Made by a program: the position numbers and the translations under genes
Shown: positions 55,768-64,000 of the stretch, one piece after another
Numbering within the stretch: the first letter of the stretch is position 1
Layout of the letters: each line of letters begins with the position of its first letter
Source: Echinicola vietnamensis DSM 17526
GTDB lineage: Bacteria; Bacteroidota; Bacteroidia; Cytophagales; Cyclobacteriaceae
Length of the DNA: 64,000 nt
Reading direction: 5' to 3'
Assembly (NCBI RefSeq): GCF_000325705.1
Contig: NC_019904.1
Location: 4,757,501-4,821,500 of the forward strand
The notes under the pieces: generated by a model
Database searches by the model: none
The model's input: the letters and a program-made list of their open reading frames with translations, nothing else
Told to the model about the DNA's origin: nothing

Positions 55768-57117
55768 ATGAAGATTTCTGCTGACCTGATCGCTAAATAT
55801 GACGTCGCTGTACCCCGTTATACGAGCTATCCGACGGTACCGCTTTGGGAAAACAATGTGGACGCCCCCACTTGGAAAAACAATGTCCTAAAAGCCTATC
55901 AGCAATTTGGGCAAAAAGAAGGCATAAGCCTCTATATCCATTTGCCCTATTGCGACAGCCTGTGCACCTACTGCGGTTGCAACAAATACATTACCAGAAA
56001 CCATGAAAAGGAAGTGCCCTATTTGGAGGCATTGAAAAGGGAGTGGGACATGTATCTTCAAATGTTACCGGCACGCCCTAAGCTCGCGACCATCCATTTG
56101 GGAGGGGGCACCCCAACGTTTTTCTCTGCTGATAACCTAAGATCTTTGATCAAATACATTTGTGGGACATCCGATGTGGTTCCAAAGGCAAAGTTCAGTT
56201 TTGAAGGCCACCCGAACAATACCACGTTGGAACACCTGTTGACCTTAAAGGAAGTTGGATTTGAACGGGTAAGTTATGGCATTCAGGATTTGAACCTGAA
56301 GGTGCAGCAGGCCATCCATAGGATCCAACCGCTATCGACAGTGAGAGAAGCTACTTATCATGCTCAATTGGCAGGATTCTCACAGATCAATTTTGACTTG
56401 ATCTATGGTTTGCCCCACCAAACTGAAGAAACCATCGAAACCACCTTGGATGAAATCAGTAAGCTCATGCCCAGCCGGATTGCCTTTTACAGCTATGCCC
56501 ACGTACCCTCGGTCTTTCAGGCGCAAAAAAGTTTTGAGCAGCACCTACCCTTAAAGTCAGCAAAGCGAAAGCTTTATGAAACCGGCAAAAGAAAGCTCAT
56601 GGCCATGGGGTATGAGGAAATCGGCATGGACCATTTTGCCTTGCCGGGAGATGAGCTGCTCACCGCCAAGGCCACGGGAAAACTCCATCGAAATTTCATG
56701 GGATATACCAATTTCAGTTCCCACATGTTGATCGGTTTGGGCAGCAGTGCCATCAGTGATGTTTATTACGCCTACGCTCAAAATACCAAAAACATCGAAC
56801 TGTATGAGGAACAAAGCATGCTGGGCCATTTCTCCCATTCCAAAGGTCACCTGATGACTACAGAGGACATCAAAACACGAAAAACCATCTTGGACCTGAT
56901 CTGCACCGGCACGACAGAAGAAGCCAGTATCATTTGGAAAATGGACAACCTCAAGCTGCTCAACGAACTGCAGGAAGATGGCCTGCTCAGCATGCGTGAA
57001 AACCGCATCATCGTCACGCCATTGGGAAGGGCCTTTATCCGCAATATTTGTTCGGCCTTTGACCATAGAATGAAAAGTAAGAAATCCCAAACCTTTGTCT
57101 TCAGCAAAGCTATTTAA
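55768..57117 (+). CDS. hemN: Oxygen-independent coproporphyrinogen III oxidase
   Basis: 449 residues, a radical SAM enzyme. The iron-sulfur motif is Cys62-xxx-Cys66-xx-Cys69 followed by Cys71 (YCDSLCTYCGCNK), as in true HemN rather than HemW. The N-terminal RYTSYPTVPLW and the GGGTPTFFS loop are family signatures; IGMDHFALPGDEL and NFMGYTNF are in the substrate part. It decarboxylates coproporphyrinogen III to protoporphyrinogen IX without oxygen, supporting haem synthesis. A Crp/Fnr-type site lies upstream. The next gene cluster downstream encodes di-heme proteins, which need this haem, but it has its own start region. Confidence 0.95.
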   Translation: MKISADLIAKYDVAVPRYTSYPTVPLWENNVDAPTWKNNVLKAYQQFGQKEGISLYIHLPYCDSLCTYCGCNKYITRNHEKEVPYLEALKREWDMYLQMLPARPKLATIHLGGGTPTFFSADNLRSLIKYICGTSDVVPKAKFSFEGHPNNTTLEHLLTLKEVGFERVSYGIQDLNLKVQQAIHRIQPLSTVREATYHAQLAGFSQINFDLIYGLPHQTEETIETTLDEISKLMPSRIAFYSYAHVPSVFQAQKSFEQHLPLKSAKRKLYETGKRKLMAMGYEEIGMDHFALPGDELLTAKATGKLHRNFMGYTNFSSHMLIGLGSSAISDVYYAYAQNTKNIELYEEQSMLGHFSHSKGHLMTTEDIKTRKTILDLICTGTTEEASIIWKMDNLKLLNELQEDGLLSMRENRIIVTPLGRAFIRNICSAFDHRMKSKKSQTFVFSKAI

Positions 57118-57308
57118 ACGGCAATGGATACACCATAAATCAACCCCTATCCCGGAAAAACACACCAAGTTTTTCGTTTTCTGACAGCCCAATTTGGTGC
57201 TGGCCCAGGTTTGTTTGCAGACAGGCCTGGGCTTTTAGTTGATTTTAATCCCATCTTAACCCCAGAGCTGCTTCTTTTTAGAGAATTTATCCTTATTTTT
57301 GTGCGCAA

Positions 57309-57701
57309 ATGCTGAAATCCTTGTTTCATATATGGCTTTCCATGATCGTGGTCCTGAACAGTATGGTGTTTTCAGTGATCCAGATGGACTATGTCCTCAA
57401 CAAGGAGTACATCGCCGAAAACCTATGCATCAACAGGGACAAACCGGAACTGCACTGTGATGGAAAATGCTTTCTGGCAGAGAAGCTAAAGGAAGCCCAA
57501 GACCAACAAGAGCAACAACCCGGCAGTATCGATGTCAGCCGAGATTTTGGCCTTTACATTTTGCAAGAAAACCATTTTGGATTTCAGCAACTTACTATCC
57601 CCCCATTTTCGAACACTTCATTTTACCAAAGGGGTAAGTATTATAACACGACCACAGATATTTTTCACCCACCTCAGGACGCAGTTTCCCCATTGGTATA
57701 A
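57309..57701 (+). CDS. Small exported CX9CX3C protein, copy 1
   Basis: 130 residues. An N-terminal hydrophobic stretch (LFHIWLSMIVVLNSMVFSVI) looks like a signal or anchor. It is followed by Cys40-x9-Cys50-x3-Cys54 in ENLCINRDKPELHCDGKCFL, then a charged helix (AEKLKEAQDQQEQQ). The protein at 62123 has the same cysteine spacing and the same following L-x2-KL pattern, so the two are related. The histidine before Cys50 adds another possible metal ligand. A TATTTTTG box sits directly before the ATG, which would give a nearly leaderless transcript. Function unknown; it opens the di-heme/MbnP region. Confidence 0.7.
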   Translation: MLKSLFHIWLSMIVVLNSMVFSVIQMDYVLNKEYIAENLCINRDKPELHCDGKCFLAEKLKEAQDQQEQQPGSIDVSRDFGLYILQENHFGFQQLTIPPFSNTSFYQRGKYYNTTTDIFHPPQDAVSPLV

Positions 57702-58055
57702 CCCGTTTAATGCATGAAGAATCGTTATGTGTAAAAGCGTAGCGACTGACTTTGATGCCATTTTAGGCCACAACTTCTATGAGCCGTGGCCTGGAGAGGC
57801 CAATGCATCTTATGGGTTCAAGTGCTTTTGGCTTTCCCAGGAGAAAAAGGAGTAACCATCATTCCTTGCTTCTAAATTGCCGAAAGCCGTAAGCTAATTT
57901 CTATTTCTAAATATTATCCATTGGAAATGTCCCCAGATGGGCAATTTGATTGCTGTATTTCTACAGGAAATGGGCATCCACCTACGCTGCAATTTCGCGG
58001 TGTGGCTGCACGGACCATGCCTTGAGGGAACATTTACCTTGTATCCAAACCGACC
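57702..58055. other. Gap before the first di-heme gene
   Basis: 354 bases. No protein-like frame and no RNA gene is seen. It probably contains the promoter of the downstream genes, but no convincing -7 box was found. Confidence 0.45.
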
Positions 58056-59180
58056 ATGCGATACCAAGCCCCATGTTTTATGGGAACAGTACTCTTGTGC
58101 TTGCTGATGTGGGCCTGTAGCAAGGAAGAGCCCGAAGAGCCTTCTACGCCAAACCCAGTGATCACCTTGGAGCATCCCGAGTACTTCCCCAATGATGTGC
58201 CCATGCCGGCCAATAATCCGTTGACCGAAGAGGGTGTGGCACTCGGCCGAATGCTGTTTTATGAAAAACAACTCTCCATAGACGGCACCATGGCGTGCGC
58301 CTCTTGCCATCAACAGGCCAAAGCCTTCACGGACGGCAAGAAAATCAGCACTGGGGTGAACGGTACCCCTGGCGACAAAAATGCCATGTCACTGGCCAAC
58401 CTGCACTGGACATCCCGGTTCTTTTGGGACGGAAGGGCGGCCAGCCTGGAGGAGCAAGCCTTGCAACCCATTGAGGACCATCGGGAAATGAATTTGCCCA
58501 TAGCAGAAGCTGTGGCCCGACTCCAAGCCGACGAAAATTACCCTGAGCGATTTGAGAAAGCATTTGGCTCAAATCAAATCACGGAAACCATGATCGGAAA
58601 GGCCCTTGCGCAGTTCATGCGCACTTTGATCTCAGGTGATTCGAGGTTTGACCAGTGGATCAGGGGTGAGGTGGAATTTACCGAACAAGAGCAACTGGGG
58701 ATGGAGCTTTTCTTCACCCACCCAGAACCTTCCCTGCACATTCGCGGCGGTAACTGCGGAGACTGTCACTTGGGCTTTTTGACCTCTGGTGACCGCAATA
58801 ACCTTCTGGGCTTTCATAACAATGGCCTTGACCAAGACGCCTACCTTGAGGAAGGTTTGGCCGCAGTAACCGGACTTCCCAAGGACAAAGGAAAATTCAA
58901 AGCCCCTACCCTCCGGAACATCGCCCTTACAGCACCTTATATGCATGATGGACGGTTTGAAACACTAACGGAAGTCCTGGAGCACTATGATGAACACATC
59001 CAGATGAACAGCACGTTGGATATCCTCATTTTGGAGGCCAGCAATGAGACGATTGCTCCTGGAGAGAACATCAAACTATACCTGACGGACGGAGAAAAAG
59101 AAGCCATACTGTCCTTTCTGCACACCCTGACGGATGAAAAATTCATTACCAATCCGAAATTCTCGGATCCATTTAATTAA
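58056..59180 (+). CDS. Di-heme cytochrome c peroxidase/MauG family lipoprotein, copy 1
   Basis: 374 residues with lipobox LLMWAC21. Two haem-c motifs: Cys81-Ala-Ser-Cys-His85 and Cys234-Gly-Asp-Cys-His238. Family blocks are GRMLFYEKQLSIDGTMACAS, WDGRAASLEEQA, FMRTLISGDSRFDQW and APYMHDGRFETLTEVLEHY; the Tyr and Met of YMHDG are candidate axial ligands. Members reduce peroxide or, as in MauG and MbnH, oxidise aromatic side chains of a partner. An MbnP-type lipoprotein starts 9 bases downstream, which favours the MbnH-like role. It is anchored in the periplasm. Confidence 0.9.
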   Translation: MRYQAPCFMGTVLLCLLMWACSKEEPEEPSTPNPVITLEHPEYFPNDVPMPANNPLTEEGVALGRMLFYEKQLSIDGTMACASCHQQAKAFTDGKKISTGVNGTPGDKNAMSLANLHWTSRFFWDGRAASLEEQALQPIEDHREMNLPIAEAVARLQADENYPERFEKAFGSNQITETMIGKALAQFMRTLISGDSRFDQWIRGEVEFTEQEQLGMELFFTHPEPSLHIRGGNCGDCHLGFLTSGDRNNLLGFHNNGLDQDAYLEEGLAAVTGLPKDKGKFKAPTLRNIALTAPYMHDGRFETLTEVLEHYDEHIQMNSTLDILILEASNETIAPGENIKLYLTDGEKEAILSFLHTLTDEKFITNPKFSDPFN

Positions 59181-59189
59181 ACAAACGAC

Positions 59190-59930
59190 ATGAAAAAGAT
59201 ATTCATTATTGTATTGACACTCATCGCCTTTACGGGCTGTAATGACCAAGAGGAAACCCCTTCAAACATCGCGGTGACCTTTAACTTTTCCCATAGCCTG
59301 GATGGCACTCCACTGGCCTTGGAGGGACCTGCCTTTGCCTTGCCTTCTGGCGAAAGCTTTACCCCGCGAAAGTTCAAATATTACGTTTCCAACATCACCT
59401 TTACGAACAGTACCTCCGGCAATCGCTTTTCGGTACCAGATGGCTATTTCCTGATCGATGAGGCAGGGAAAAAGCAATTCAGCGTAGAAATTCCCTCAGA
59501 CCGTTACGACCAATTGACCTTTTATATCGGCATTGACAAGGCCCGAAACCTCTCCACTGACCAAGTGGGCGATTTGGATCCCAGCAACGACATGGCCTGG
59601 AACTGGAATACCGGCTATAAGTTTTTCGTTTTGGAGGGGGAATGGGAATTTGAGGGTTCAGCCCGCCAAGGACTTATCGTCCACATCGGTAATAATGACC
59701 CTGAAAGCGAACAAAACTTTAAGGCCATTGATTTTGACCTCGCGTCAGCCGGGAAAACCTTAGGAAAAGAAGTAGTGGTGGAGCTTGACTTCGAGGCCAA
59801 CCTAGATCAGTTGTTTACGGCTCCTCATGAAATTGTCGTCCATGACTTGGAAAACACCAGCATCATGGGCGGAGAAACAGCCATCAGCATCGCCAATAAT
59901 TATCAGGAAGGTTTTTTCAGCCTTCAGTAG
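59190..59930 (+). CDS. MbnP-family lipoprotein, copy 1
   Basis: 246 residues with lipobox IAFTGC17. The MbnP signature SNDMAWNWNTGYKFFVLEGE is present, with Trp137 and Trp139, after YYVSNITFTNSTSG and a YIGID turn. In the methanotroph family member a conserved tryptophan is converted to kynurenine by MbnH and helps bind Cu(I); whether that happens here is not known. It lies between two di-heme genes (9 and 15 bases away), so either or both could be its modifying enzyme. Predicted to be periplasmic and beta-rich. Confidence 0.85.
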   Translation: MKKIFIIVLTLIAFTGCNDQEETPSNIAVTFNFSHSLDGTPLALEGPAFALPSGESFTPRKFKYYVSNITFTNSTSGNRFSVPDGYFLIDEAGKKQFSVEIPSDRYDQLTFYIGIDKARNLSTDQVGDLDPSNDMAWNWNTGYKFFVLEGEWEFEGSARQGLIVHIGNNDPESEQNFKAIDFDLASAGKTLGKEVVVELDFEANLDQLFTAPHEIVVHDLENTSIMGGETAISIANNYQEGFFSLQ

Positions 59931-59945
59931 TCAAATCATTCGGGA

Positions 59946-61007
59946 TTGAAAACAACCGTCACATATCGCCTTATCTTGGCCTTGGCTGTGGGAAGTTTGC
60001 TCTCAGGATGCTTGCAAGACGCTGCGGAAACCATGAAACCAAACCCGGAATATTACCTTCCCGAGGTTTCTGCTACCCTGCAACAGCCAGCATTTCCACA
60101 GCCCTCCAGAAACCCCATTAGCGAGGAGGGCGTCCTATTGGGCAAAACCCTCTTCTATGACCCGAGGCTTTCGGCCAATGGCCAAGTAGCCTGTAGCAGC
60201 TGCCATCTGCCTGCGCTGGCCTTCGGTGACGGGGTAGACTTGACTGCAGCGGGGGTGTCCGGCAAAACACTCCACAGGCACTCCCCTACGCTGTTTAACC
60301 TCGCTTGGCACGATGGCTTGTTTTGGGACGGGGGAGCGACCAACTTGGAATCACTGGTTTTTGGTCCCTTGACCCATCCAGATGAAATGGGGGCAGACCT
60401 GAACAAGGTCATTCCATACCTGCGTGAAAGCCCAGCATACCCTTCGCTCTTCAAGGCTGCTTTTCAGACAGATTCCATTACCAGCGCCCTTATGGGCAGG
60501 GCCTTGGCCCAATTTGTCCGAACACTCATCTCTCAAGACAGTCGCTACGACCAATGGAAAAGGAATGAGGCCACCCTTAGTGAGGAAGAAATCCAAGGGT
60601 ATCGCCTCTATCAGCAGCACTGCAGCAGCTGCCATAAGGAAGGCTTGTTTACCGACCTGCGTTACCATAACAACGGGTTGGACCAAACTTATCCTGATCC
60701 TTATGAACTGGAAGGCCTGTTGCTGGGGAGATACCGAATTTCTTTTGACGAAATGGACCGTGGAGCCTATAAGACCCCTTCATTGAGAAACCTCCTATTC
60801 ACCGCTCCTTATATGCATGACGGGAGGTTTGCTACCTTGGACGAGGTGCTGGACCATTATGAAAAAGGCATACAGCTCAACGAAAGCCTTGCCCCGGAGC
60901 TGGAAAATGGCATTCGACTATCCCATACAGAGCGGGAGGCCCTTTTGGCTTTCTTGGCCACCCTCAGCGATCACCAATTTATCCATAATAAAGCTTATCA
61001 AGAGTAA
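59946..61007 (+). CDS. Di-heme cytochrome c peroxidase/MauG family lipoprotein, copy 2 (MbnH-like)
   Basis: 353 residues from a TTG start, chosen because it opens the lipoprotein signal (SLLSGC22). Two haem-c motifs: Cys83-Ser-Ser-Cys-His87 and Cys226-Ser-Ser-Cys-His230. WHDGLFWDGGATNLESLV, FVRTLISQDSRYDQW and APYMHDGRFATLDEVLDHY mark the family. It is clearly a paralogue of the gene at 58056, with the same order of motifs. It directly follows MbnP copy 1, which is the usual MbnP-MbnH order, and precedes the barrel gene by 9 bases, so the cluster reads as one operon. Confidence 0.9.
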   Translation: MKTTVTYRLILALAVGSLLSGCLQDAAETMKPNPEYYLPEVSATLQQPAFPQPSRNPISEEGVLLGKTLFYDPRLSANGQVACSSCHLPALAFGDGVDLTAAGVSGKTLHRHSPTLFNLAWHDGLFWDGGATNLESLVFGPLTHPDEMGADLNKVIPYLRESPAYPSLFKAAFQTDSITSALMGRALAQFVRTLISQDSRYDQWKRNEATLSEEEIQGYRLYQQHCSSCHKEGLFTDLRYHNNGLDQTYPDPYELEGLLLGRYRISFDEMDRGAYKTPSLRNLLFTAPYMHDGRFATLDEVLDHYEKGIQLNESLAPELENGIRLSHTEREALLAFLATLSDHQFIHNKAYQE

Positions 61008-61016
61008 GCCAATATC

Positions 61017-62108
61017 ATGAAAAAAACATTATCCATACTATTTATTCTGCTTTCCCTTCCTTTACTGTCCAAGGAAGCCCAGGCTTGTGACAGCTGCAAC
61101 TTCTTTGAATACAGCTTGCTGCAAAACCGGAGCTATATTGGGCTGTTTTACCGGCACCGGCAATTTGGCGGATACGACCGATACGGCTACACCTCCCCCA
61201 ACCCGGGCACCGCGGTGGTCACGAGCAGCTTGGCCAATGGATTCGAAAATGGAGCCACGGCAAAATATGCCCCCCAAGCCAGAACGGCGGTAACCCCATC
61301 CCTCGATCAGGACATGATCGTCATGCATGAACCCGAAGGCACCGGACTGTATGTCAACAAGACGGATCAAGACTGGGAAACCTATGAAACCGTAGAGCTA
61401 AGGGGAAATTTCACTTGGAAAAACCAATGGAACTTTACTTTTCTCCTTCCCTATGAGTCCAACAGGGTCCATTACCAAAAAATGCTGGACCTGCCCAATC
61501 CCGTGCAAGACACCACCTTGAACGTACATGGCTGGGGTGACCTGACCATTGCGGCAGATTTTATCCACTACATTTATCAGGACAAGGCACGTCACACCTT
61601 CCGTCCTGGACTGGCGATCGTCGCCCCCACCGGTCAATCCCGTCAAATCGCTGCAAATGGTGATGCGTTTGACCCAATCATCCAGCCTGGAACGGGATCT
61701 TGGAGCTATGTGGCCAGGCTGAATTACCAATTGTTCTACACCAAAACAGGGCTAAATGCCGGGTTCAGTTACAAGCAGTCTACTGAAGGAGCCCAAAACT
61801 ATCAATTTGGCAACAGTATTAATGCCTCGGCCATTGGTTTTCACCAATTATCATTCAAGGGAGATTGGCTCTTGGTGCCCAATGTCGGTGCCTACTACGA
61901 GCAGTCCCAGAAGGATCACTGGAAAGGGGAAGAACAGCAGCTTACCGGCGGAAAGGTTGCCTTTGCCCAAGCGGGGTTGGATGTCAACCGGCAAGAATGG
62001 ACCCTTAGCGTGATGTGGCAAACACCGGTCTACCAAAACCTGAATGGAAACCAAATCCAGCATCAAAACCGCCTCAGCATCGGGCTGATCAAAGCATTCA
62101 AACTATAA
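61017..62108 (+). CDS. Outer-membrane beta-barrel, transporter-like, with N-terminal Cys motif
   Basis: 363 residues. The signal peptide ends EAQA, and the mature chain begins CDSCNFFEYSLLQN. This Cys-x2-Cys at the very start is unusual for a barrel and could bind metal; a lipid anchor on the first Cys is unlikely because no lipobox is seen. The rest is a beta-barrel of the MetA-pathway/transporter-like type (VELRGNFTWKNQWNFTFLLPYE, HTFRPGLAIVAPTGQ) ending KAFKL. It may pass a small molecule or metal complex across the outer membrane. It is 9 bases after the second di-heme gene, so probably part of the same system. Confidence 0.7.
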   Translation: MKKTLSILFILLSLPLLSKEAQACDSCNFFEYSLLQNRSYIGLFYRHRQFGGYDRYGYTSPNPGTAVVTSSLANGFENGATAKYAPQARTAVTPSLDQDMIVMHEPEGTGLYVNKTDQDWETYETVELRGNFTWKNQWNFTFLLPYESNRVHYQKMLDLPNPVQDTTLNVHGWGDLTIAADFIHYIYQDKARHTFRPGLAIVAPTGQSRQIAANGDAFDPIIQPGTGSWSYVARLNYQLFYTKTGLNAGFSYKQSTEGAQNYQFGNSINASAIGFHQLSFKGDWLLVPNVGAYYEQSQKDHWKGEEQQLTGGKVAFAQAGLDVNRQEWTLSVMWQTPVYQNLNGNQIQHQNRLSIGLIKAFKL

Positions 62109-62122
62109 ACCAATCAGCCATC

Positions 62123-62491
62123 ATGAACCTAAAGTTTCTTGCTTTGGTGGCCTTACTGATGGTCAAGATCCTGGCCGCTCCGATTGTTTACGTGGATTTT
62201 AAAATTCATCAGGAACAGTTGGCAAAAGTGGCATGTGTGGACAGGAATGCCCCCATTACCGTATGCAGGGCAAACTGTGTGCTGGTCAGTAAACTCCAGC
62301 TCACTGCTGATGCCTCGGATGAAGAAAAAAACCTAAAAGGTGAAAGACACCAGGAAATACTCTATTTTTCGAATTTCCCTGTTTTTCAATTCTTCAGTAA
62401 GGTTCCAATCATCAAAATGGCATGGGGGAAGGGAATTCCATGCAAGGGTTTTGACCACAGGCCGATTAAACCACCAAACATCTTTTTATAA
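62123..62491 (+). CDS. Small exported CX9CX3C protein, copy 2
   Basis: 122 residues from the ATG at 62123; the frame is open further upstream but that part overlaps the barrel gene. A signal peptide ends ILAAP. Cys38-x9-Cys48-x3-Cys52 in ACVDRNAPITVCRANCVL has the same spacing as Cys40/50/54 of the protein at 57309, followed by the same L-x2-KL. Three cysteines can form one disulfide and leave one free thiol, or bind a metal. It sits between the barrel and MbnP copy 2 in the same direction. Function unknown. Confidence 0.72.
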   Translation: MNLKFLALVALLMVKILAAPIVYVDFKIHQEQLAKVACVDRNAPITVCRANCVLVSKLQLTADASDEEKNLKGERHQEILYFSNFPVFQFFSKVPIIKMAWGKGIPCKGFDHRPIKPPNIFL

Positions 62492-62551
62492 CCTGAAACG
62501 TTCGTAGGGTCTCCCTACACTTACTTCATTCATCAAACCATAAAAAGAAAA

Positions 62552-63352
62552 ATGAAAAATATCTTAAATAGATTATTAGTAGCATTTTTAGTCGTTGGAG
62601 CCATGGCTTCATGTACCAATGACACTGATGACGCCATGACCATCGAAAATCAATCGGCGCTTTCCATTCGTATAGACCACGCTTTTGGGGAAGAGGCCTT
62701 TGAGCTTGGGAAAACCTTTACAACCGAAAACGGCACTGCGCTAACGTTCAATGAACTACGCTATTGGATTTCAAATGTAGAACTGACTCATGAAAACGGC
62801 ACTAAGTATCAGGTACCTGAATCTTATTATTTGGTCCAGCACATGAAGGAACAATTGGTTCAGGACACCTTCGTGCTACCGGATTCCGTACGTGAGACCA
62901 TTGTGCTCAAAAACATCCCCGATGGCACATATACGGGAGTCAGCTTTGCACTGGGAATAGATCCCGAATATAATGATGACTTGACACGCACCGCTGGTGA
63001 ACTAAACGCCCTCCAGAATATGGCCTATTCTTCTTGGATGTGGTTTACCAGTTACATTTTCTCCAAAACAAAGGGTACTGTTGGTCAAGGAGAGGATGCC
63101 GTGGAATTTGCCTTCGAAACAGGTTCAAATGATAGCTTCAGAACGGTATCCCTCCAATTGGCAAGTCCAGTAACGGTAAAAACGGATGCCGAAAATGTCA
63201 TCAGGATAAAAAATGATGTCCAATCATTATTTGCAGAAATTACATTTGACGAAGCATTGATGTCCGGAACCAAGTACATGATCGGGGCCTCCAATCCCGA
63301 TATGATGATGAAACTTTCCAACAACTACCAAGCAGCATTTACTGCAGAATAA
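62552..63352 (+). CDS. MbnP-family lipoprotein, copy 2
   Basis: 266 residues with lipobox GAMASC21. The family pattern is shown by NELRYWISNVELTHENGTKY, TYTGVSFALGIDPEYND and NMAYSSWMWFTSYIFSKTKG, which aligns with DMAWNWNTGYKFFVLEG of copy 1; here Trp162 and Trp164 replace that Trp pair in a shifted context. The motif is more divergent than in copy 1, so the modification or metal site may differ. It ends the cluster and is followed 3 bases later by a strong terminator. Confidence 0.8.
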   Translation: MKNILNRLLVAFLVVGAMASCTNDTDDAMTIENQSALSIRIDHAFGEEAFELGKTFTTENGTALTFNELRYWISNVELTHENGTKYQVPESYYLVQHMKEQLVQDTFVLPDSVRETIVLKNIPDGTYTGVSFALGIDPEYNDDLTRTAGELNALQNMAYSSWMWFTSYIFSKTKGTVGQGEDAVEFAFETGSNDSFRTVSLQLASPVTVKTDAENVIRIKNDVQSLFAEITFDEALMSGTKYMIGASNPDMMMKLSNNYQAAFTAE

Positions 63353-63355
63353 TAA

Positions 63356-63386
63356 AAAAGGTGAAGGCCATTAGCCTTCACCTTTT
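63356..63386 (+). terminator. Rho-independent terminator of the di-heme/MbnP cluster
   Basis: AAAAGGTGAAGGC pairs with GCCTTCACCTTTT: a perfect 13-bp stem with the 5-base loop CATTA, followed by T-rich sequence. It starts three bases after the MbnP copy 2 stop. Confidence 0.92.
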
Positions 63387-63430
63387 CACATTTTACCTTA
63401 ACCCTTATATAAATTTTTAATGATTTTTGA

Positions 63431-64000
63431 TCACAGCGCCACTTGGAACTGCATCACGGCCATTCCTTTGCGCTCATCCACGACATAGCTCCCTTGGCTG
63501 TTGGCAGCAAAGATGGGCCGGCTTTGATAGCTAAAGGACAATTTCACCCGATTCCCTTCGATTAACCAATTTACCCCGCCGTCATACATCGCCATAGGGT
63601 CATCCAAGCGGTCAAACTGGGAATACTGGCTGCTGACATAGGGCTGCAAGGTCCCGGCATTACCGAGCAGGTCCCTCCTGAAGAGATAGCCAAACTGCGC
63701 ATAAAAGGTGCTTCCGGTACCAATCGTAGGAAAAGCGCTTCCTGGGCCATTCAGAGTTCCTTCAGCATTGACACCTGTGGCCGGATTCATGGCGCCGACA
63801 TTCCTGATGTAGTTTTTTCCATAATCGCTGTACGTATAGGCAGCATATGCCGTAATAGCATTTCCCTTGCTTCGATTTATGGGCCTGTCATAGAAGGCAT
63901 CGATGGCCATTATCCCCAAGTTGGTCCTGACCGTATCGGTAGAACTTTCGGCATAATGCCACATGGCATCCTTTTGGGCCATAAAGCCCGCGCCTATATT
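63431..64000 (-). CDS. C-terminal part of an outer-membrane porin-like protein, cut by window edge
   Basis: The frame stays open to the right edge, so the N-terminus is outside the window; an internal Met at 63982 is not the start. About 189 residues are visible, with alternating beta-strand pattern (ITAYAAYTYSDYGKNYIRN, GSTFYAQFGYLFRRDLLGN, QPYVSSQYSQFDRLDDPMA, KLSFSYQSRPIF) and the end MAVMQFQVAL. This resembles phosphate-selective porin (OprP/O-type) barrels. It converges on the MbnP cluster, separated by the 63356 terminator. Confidence 0.7.
   Translation of the reverse strand, partial: NIGAGFMAQKDAMWHYAESSTDTVRTNLGIMAIDAFYDRPINRSKGNAITAYAAYTYSDYGKNYIRNVGAMNPATGVNAEGTLNGPGSAFPTIGTGSTFYAQFGYLFRRDLLGNAGTLQPYVSSQYSQFDRLDDPMAMYDGGVNWLIEGNRVKLSFSYQSRPIFAANSQGSYVVDERKGMAVMQFQVAL

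Follow-up and report, generated by a model that had tools for sequence, protein, structure and literature searches.

How copper passes the outer membrane of Bacteroidota, and how these bacteria sense it, is to our knowledge poorly known, and a small, recurrent and testable set of genes that might accomplish both would be of interest. The window considered here, 64,000 nucleotides of Echinicola vietnamensis DSM 17526 (NC_019904.1, positions 4,757,501 to 4,821,500), contains such a candidate: seven open frames, all on the + strand as an earlier note on this DNA had stated, in the order c1-H1-P1-H2-barrel-c2-P2, encoding two small CX9CX3C proteins (c1, c2), two di-heme enzymes related to MauG and MbnH (H1, H2), two MbnP-type lipoproteins (P1, P2) and an outer-membrane barrel. 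What does this set do, and how was it put together? We propose, with a probability of about 0.58, that it is a copper-acquisition cassette of Bacteroidota placed under copper-sensing leader proteins. That it is a copper module of some kind is very probable, and on balance we lean towards acquisition rather than detoxification as its purpose. The earlier note had seen a duplicated operon forming a metal-handling device, probably for copper; an exported MbnP/MbnH and barrel device, conserved in Bacteroidota and most probably concerned with copper, survives from that picture, and the origin of its pairs by duplication and the inclusion of the small Cys proteins among its parts do not.

The central observation is that c-MbnP-MbnH-barrel is a recurrent four-gene core cassette of Bacteroidota. 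Of 196 genomes sampled from the window's family, 84 contain MbnP, and a neighbourhood survey gave this as the basic gene order around the matches. When named genomes were scanned with a barrel alignment, MbnP and MbnH lay on the same strand within 6 kb of the barrel in 75 of the 80 loci examined (90 were found), with c present too in 66; the rest comprised one locus with MbnP and c, one with c only, and three without readable neighbours because the barrel stood at a contig edge. At the family level, 58 barrel loci, window included, divided into 47 with c, MbnP and MbnH, four with MbnP and MbnH, two with MbnP and c, one with MbnH and four with c only; two of the 58 (L070, L047) hold another, His/Met-rich type of barrel. 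A phylum-wide sample contained the barrel at E 1e-40 or better in 35 of 395 genomes, and of the 34 outside the window's own, the 20 examined yielded 17 loci with c, MbnP and MbnH, one with MbnP and MbnH, and two with c only. The rows of the barrel alignment were taken from MbnP neighbourhoods, so these scans are biased towards MbnP-linked barrels. Within that limit, the co-occurrence elsewhere on which the earlier note had staked its device is borne out. The window's own form differs in that two enzyme genes flank one MbnP and that a further leader and an MbnP of another class are present besides; P1 and P2 are the sole MbnP matches in the genome (one 5.6-Mb contig). Its closest barrels among the named matches listed are those of Echinicola shivajiensis (74% identity) and E. 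arenosa (75%). We found no description in the literature of a four-gene cassette with a Cys-tipped barrel, an earlier mention being possible in PMC9973294 (Fig. 6B), whose supplements lay outside the search; nor did the search, which did not take in a 2021 paper on MbnP, return any article linking MbnP, Bacteroidetes and copper or using the term 'metallo-mystery pair'. Some cassettes (L136, L140, L145, L165) hold or adjoin a TonB receptor, PepSY_TM, YHS, DJ-1 or DUF2911 gene.

H1 (58056..59180, + strand, 374 aa) and H2 (59946..61007, + strand, 353 aa, TTG start) are di-heme lipoproteins, as had been noticed before: both match CCP_MauG well beyond the curated cut-off (1.3e-62 and 3.9e-54), and each has two CXXCH motifs. 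In an alignment of 52 of the 74 enzymes, all 52 rows keep the two CXXCH motifs together with the inter-heme Trp and a Tyr. We take this Tyr position to be that of the Tyr ligand of MauG, and assume the roles of the MauG positions accordingly. The same Tyr aligns with a Met of peroxidase 1iqc, and a peroxidase role for H1 and H2 is disfavoured because Tyr replaces this Met ligand. The nearest comparison is with the MbnH/MbnP pair of methanotrophs (the 'metallo-mystery pair', TIGR04039/TIGR04052), in which a di-heme CCP/MauG-type lipoprotein likewise stands beside a WxW MbnP. The window differs from that pair in having two enzymes around one MbnP, a Glu-for-His class of MbnP, leader genes and a Cys-tipped barrel; NCBI equivalog cut-offs are not reached, and no methanobactin genes were seen beside the set. 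The parts of PMC3621798 and PMC3912023 on which we draw describe MopE and CorA with their kynurenine copper sites, and also MbnP/MbnH pairs that stand apart from methanobactin operons. The CorA/CorB and MopE/SACCP systems resemble the window in encoding an exported di-heme protein together with a copper protein in which Trp is converted to kynurenine (PMC3912023, PMC3621798); the sequences of CorA and MopE show no marked similarity to MbnP (PMC3621798), and, unlike the window, these systems have no barrel or leader mentioned in those parts.

H1 and H2 are 39% identical and, to judge from their tree, belong to old, separate clades. Among 138 sequences (194 before near copies were removed), H1 falls in a clade of 17 members (support 100), 16 of which stand directly before MbnP, and H2 belongs to a 20-member clade (support 97). 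The two clades co-occur in 13 loci, window included, with one MbnP in 12 and two in L056. A separate clade of first-position enzymes from Flectobacillus, Pseudarcicella and unclassified Cytophagales (n=3, support 100) shows that the enzyme-MbnP-enzyme-barrel order arose elsewhere in the tree too. Altogether, the arrangement in which one enzyme gene immediately precedes MbnP and a second follows within two genes was seen in 23 distinct loci. We rejected a recent duplication of one MbnP/MbnH operon, the sense in which the earlier note's 'duplicated' might be understood, on the 39% identity of H1 with H2, the 22% identity of P1 with P2, and the separate clades into which they fall. Nor do two enzyme/partner pairs created by duplication agree with the Echinicola genus, where three of six genomes examined have two enzymes and a single MbnP, or with the age of the enzyme clades. 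In two loci a 231-255-residue protein is encoded between MbnP and the second enzyme (L050:8620-9315, L062:9860-10627); that of L050 is a DUF3050 protein (7.7e-95) and also weakly matches iron-containing redox enzymes.

P1 (59190..59930, + strand, 246 aa) and P2 (62552..63352, + strand, 266 aa) match PF20243 at 1.6e-42 and 2.2e-42, their 146 and 145.6 bits lying far above the gathering score of 27, and the earlier assignment of both to the MbnP type holds. Their scores make them Pfam-level MbnP relatives, and not members of the NCBI equivalog. In an alignment of 53 of the 74 MbnPs, W137 of the WxW motif is kept in 53 rows and W139 in 52, and both window proteins have it, as WNW in P1 and WMW in P2. 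We take the first Trp of this motif to be the one that becomes kynurenine; a 2021 paper reportedly deals with MbnP, copper and kynurenine. Modification of that tryptophan in P1 is likely. A later His (His165 in P1) is present in 48 of the 53 rows and is Glu in five, P2 included. The P1 His aligns with HVGS of the solved protein 7l6g in a weak alignment match (E 0.012), and a PDB search with P1 as a single sequence gave no match up to E 1. The Glu class, which reads WMW or WAW ... ETG, forms a group of seven rows with support 100 that includes P2. All six P2-class loci in the enzyme tree carry an H2-clade enzyme, compared with 14 of the 109 remaining loci (Fisher 1.4e-5, with no correction for kinship). 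The seventh, L044, does not figure in the tree, its enzymes having been dropped as near copies; one of these shares 98.5% identity with an H2-clade enzyme, that of L041. Because P2-class loci also carry an H2-clade enzyme, pairing of H1 with P1 and of H2 with P2 is plausible for the window, although H2-clade enzymes also occur in loci without a P2-class MbnP, which argues against strict pairing. Acidic residues shortly after the lipoprotein Cys are a signal for surface export, and at least two of the six positions after the Cys are acidic in 135 of 164 MbnPs with a scored Cys compared with 39 of 110 control lipoprotein-like frames; this is weak evidence for export of the MbnPs to the surface.

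Three further features of the MbnP family deserve mention. An HxH tail on MbnP tracks the barrel (a barrel lies in the cluster for 58 of 60 tailed versus 29 of 67 untailed MbnPs; Fisher 9e-12, uncorrected for kinship), and P1 and P2 of the window lack this tail. A well-supported clade of 24 MbnP-like rows (L099-L123), mostly beside MbnH-like genes, is without the usual WxW, so that these partners lack the Trp pair open to modification. Finally, genome G043 has three MbnP matches with identical scores (C5:56394, C12:55672, C19:352706), one on each of three contigs (L084, L088, L124) and all with the same barrel-MbnP-enzyme neighbours; they appear to be recent copies of one unit composed of a P2-class MbnP and an enzyme.

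The barrel (61017..62108, + strand, 363 aa) is predicted to be an outer-membrane channel of about 12 strands with a COG4313-like fold, and its mature chain probably starts CDSC, as the earlier note had read it. In its modelled 12-stranded fold it is like the COG4313/PF13557 channels (Pput2725, PDB 4rl8; FapF), from which it differs in lacking a match to the PF13557 profile; among 48 relatives one matched, at 1.1e-9. The N-terminal cysteines form CxxC in the window and CxxCxC in most relatives. The barrel alignment took in 48 of 52 barrels; the four not used were a broken frame and three that were fragments or belonged to a different type of barrel. That this barrel passes copper is a tentative suggestion, somewhat short of even odds. 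A second kind of barrel, whose start is rich in His and Met (as in GVMGDH.H.KGE), stands behind c genes at L218:5323-6378, L070:686-1684 and L047:11454-12365, and is possibly a second copper-linked barrel type.

Our reading departs from the earlier note over the small Cys-rich proteins, which it had counted among the metal-handling parts. Both c1 (57309..57701, + strand, 130 aa, ending ..IFHPPQDAVSPLV) and c2 (62123..62491, + strand, 122 aa, ending ..RPIKPPNIFL, ahead of P2) do contain CX9CX3C, and we propose them as a first and a second copper-sensing leader, c1 as an upstream open reading frame. c1 belongs to no Pfam or NCBIfam family above cut-off, and the c proteins as a group have no convincing Pfam match. 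A Pro-Pro, most often in the context ..FHPP, falls within the last 13 residues in 166 of 167 unique c proteins versus 22 of 666 nearby control frames of 90-200 residues (mechanical open frames), in most members 2-4 residues before the stop, and it lies 63-72 residues after the last Cys in 148 of 149 unique CX9CX3C members (mean 67.7, sd 1.9). The gap that follows c is long, with a median of 136.5 bases before MbnP and 218.5 before MbnH as against 5.5 and 1 within the operon; in the window, c1 and H1 are separated by 354 bases (57702..58055, + strand), and the remaining gaps are 9, 15, 9, 14 and 60 bases, most of them within the 9-15 bases noted earlier from 58056 on. Because Pro-Pro, near-fixed spacing and a long downstream gap fit a copper-sensing leader better than a metal-handling part, it is likely that the c genes are regulatory leaders. 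Leaders of like form with Pro-Pro and without CX9CX3C also stand before the usual MbnP, MbnH or barrel genes (L037-L039, L042, L045, L046, L141, L152, L172, L174, L179, L181, L198), and perhaps sense another signal.

Precedents for such leaders are CruR and CutF, with which the review PMC10502375 is cited. In the parts of PMC9426467 on which we draw, CruR of Bordetella pertussis is an exported DUF2946 protein heading copper operons. Copper is sensed by its CXXC, mutation of which abolishes control by copper, and its RAPP, three residues from the end and 45 from the CXXC, is required for downstream expression without copper. CruR homologues, mostly of Proteobacteria, precede TIGR01778 receptors, PepSY_TM, Sco and MbnPH (PMC9426467). 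The c proteins share with CruR small size, probable export, a Cys motif, a C-terminal Pro-Pro at near-fixed distance and a long gap, as well as partners among copper-uptake genes downstream (TIGR01778 receptors, PepSY_TM, MbnPH); they differ in the distance between the last Cys and the Pro-Pro, about 67.7 residues versus 45 intervening residues in CruR. CutF of Rhodobacter capsulatus is a related leader that, in the opposite direction to CruR, raises its target with copper (PMC9973294). A survey in that article, with filters of <150 aa, PP within 15 residues of the C-terminus and a same-strand next gene within 1,000 nt, gave 5,334 proteins, 19% of them from Bacteroidota, or 40% when normalised. 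As far as tested, c1 (130 aa, 8 residues after PP, gap 354) and c2 (122 aa, 4 residues after PP, gap 60) satisfy the sequence filters of this survey, so their kind is known in outline, and they are like CutF-like leaders in length, Pro-Pro position, downstream gene and CxxxC (PMC9973294). In the parts of that article used here no test of a Bacteroidota member appears, and we found no MbnP or porin in its main text, its figures and supplements being outside the search.

The c genes also stand before other genes in 20 loci away from MbnP, hand-picked from the c matches for that distance. TonB receptors follow c in 19 (15 directly, four after one gene) and a His/Met-rich barrel in one; L222 holds two c genes, the second of which precedes the receptor. 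The best NCBIfam model is a copper receptor for 12 of the 19, a siderophore receptor for five, PqqU for one and SusC for one, with scores below the cut-offs except for the SusC match. SCO1 lies beside c in one locus and YtkA-like genes in two, and PepSY_TM comes after the receptor in all three cases scanned.

From these data we infer the metal, the modification, the switching and the transport as follows. Transcription would start just before c1. In low copper, ribosomes on c1 would pause at the C-terminal ..FHPP and the downstream genes would be expressed; copper on the nascent CX9CX3C would alter the pause and lower expression, as described for CruR, and c2 would provide the added P2 with a switch of the same kind. 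H1 and H2, exported di-heme proteins with Tyr at the MauG/MbnH ligand position, would build a copper site by oxidising the first WxW Trp of MbnP to kynurenine; P1 would most likely be served by H1, and P2, or both, by H2. Copper would be captured by the MbnP lipoproteins, which may sit at the cell surface, and the barrel, with CxxC in a putative plug-forming N-terminus, would pass it over the outer membrane, its cysteines acting as a metal gate or relay. Such a set would offer a candidate leader-peptide copper switch, a possible Trp-oxidising copper-site enzyme and a candidate Cys-tipped copper channel, joining three lines of work, on MbnH/MbnP, on CruR/CutF and on COG4313 channels; the two-enzyme form and the Glu-for-His class suggest more than one modified site. 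The boldest version, a phylum-spread copper-acquisition machine in which a nascent-chain sensor outside DUF2946 controls a kynurenine-forming pair and a channel with a Cys-gated plug in its lumen, and in which Echinicola and several other lineages use two non-redundant MbnHs for His-type and Glu-type MbnPs, we consider, taken as a whole, rather unlikely.

A number of results weigh against copper acquisition under copper-sensing leaders. Both enzymes score below the TIGR04039 cut-off of 362.85 bits (H1 281.2, H2 223.5), both partners below the 140-bit equivalog cut-off of TIGR04052 (P1 45, P2 30.2), and WxW is present in 170 of 193 MbnP matches and absent from 23. The first 30 residues of the barrel are modelled with low confidence, residues 15-30 below pLDDT 50, and COG4313 channels are thought to carry hydrophobic molecules, their source paper being silent on copper. 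PF11162 (DUF2946) has no match in 46 aligned c members or in 39 related genomes; the Cys motif of c is CX9CX3C and not CXXC, its ending mostly FHPP and not RAPP, and 16 of 167 c proteins lack an exact CX9CX3C. By eye, no conserved element appears in the c1-H1 gap across six Echinicola loci, nor has the gap an exceptional C-over-G stretch; the C/G of its best 80 bases, 2.2, is equalled or exceeded by 7.5% of window 80-mers on the + strand, so that a Rho-type site is unsupported. A same-strand gene lies upstream of 114 of 168 c genes, within 40 bases in 17, so some c genes are internal, like c2, and c is not always clearly first. Four c-bearing family barrel loci and two of the phylum sample have no MbnP or MbnH nearby; among them is L095, where a gene for outer-membrane efflux (OEP) lies three genes on. 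Finally, CutF switches its target on with copper, so the c switch could go either way.

This last point leads to the alternative in which the same parts are switched on by copper, the leaders acting like CutF, and in which MbnP and barrel bind and export or sequester an excess of it. The OEP gene at L095 and the short gap before some barrels (c-barrel median 91.5 bases, n=12) would suit detoxification, as would the frequent position of CutF-like proteins ahead of detoxification genes (PMC9973294, in the parts used here). We regard it as unlikely, since c precedes uptake genes, namely copper-, siderophore- or PqqU-type TonB receptors, in 18 of the 20 chosen loci away from MbnP, and since CorA and MopE, both characterised kynurenine copper proteins, are repressed by copper according to the parts of PMC3912023 consulted. 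Could the small Cys proteins instead be periplasmic copper-binding parts, chaperones rather than regulators? Their N-terminal hydrophobic segment, the exact CX9CX3C of 151 of 167 unique members and the three Cys in all 46 aligned rows (chosen from 68 c proteins, with those lacking Cys excluded) would be expected of chaperones. The Pro-Pro near the stop, the near-fixed Cys distance and the long downstream gaps would go unexplained, however, and all 16 members without exact CX9CX3C keep the Pro-Pro; the predicted fold of c1, with a helix at residues 2-39 of the model, is poor (pTM 0.29). Chaperones are accordingly an improbable account of c.

A different objection concerns the chemistry. The di-heme enzymes might make another product, such as a Trp-Trp crosslink or a Tyr modification, or remove H2O2, and MbnP might not be a copper protein. 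H2 scores nearly as well on the MauG model TIGR03791 as on that of MbnH (209.9 versus 223.5 bits; H1 175.8 on the former, both below its 443.85-bit cut-off), neither enzyme reaches the MbnH equivalog cut-off, P2 lacks the usual His, and the 24-row clade mostly beside MbnH-like genes lacks the usual form of WxW. Set against this, WxW and His of P1 align, weakly, to 7l6g, and the Tyr in place of the Met ligand disfavours peroxidase activity, which makes another chemistry quite unlikely in our estimation. Least probable of all is a cassette for another metal or a metallophore: six of the 19 receptors are of siderophore or PqqU type, with PepSY_TM after the three that were scanned, and CutF-like proteins may serve other metals (PMC9973294, in the same parts), but the copper-receptor model is best for 12 of 19, SCO1 and YHS neighbours occur, and the known kynurenine sites, as far as the cited parts describe them, bind copper.

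Upstream of the operon lie a radical-SAM gene (55768-57117, Radical_SAM PF04055) and a terminator-like hairpin with a 14-pair stem (57202..57233, + strand, a consensus match only), after which comes c1; c2 is internal. TAnnTTTG, which we take to be the Bacteroidota -7 promoter consensus, occurs 7 bases before the c1 start codon (57294..57301, + strand) and is exact, by eye, in four of six aligned Echinicola loci, window included. A sigma-70 scan gave promoter-like sites no more often than in shuffles (7 vs 8.5), and Rfam had no match within 56900-64000, the c1-H1 gap included. The strong terminator that the earlier note placed after the operon corresponds to a terminator-like hairpin with a 15-pair stem (63355..63387), flagged on the - strand and reading on both; as the scan gave 12 such sites and shuffled sequence 8.3 +/- 3.5, nothing but its stem length sets this one apart. 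Convergent with the operon on its 3' side is the gene of a porin weakly like ExtI (below cut-off; window 63431-64000 and L205:1935-6476), followed by a TonB receptor and then a thioredoxin-looking gene, an order that recurs in L034, where both were scanned.

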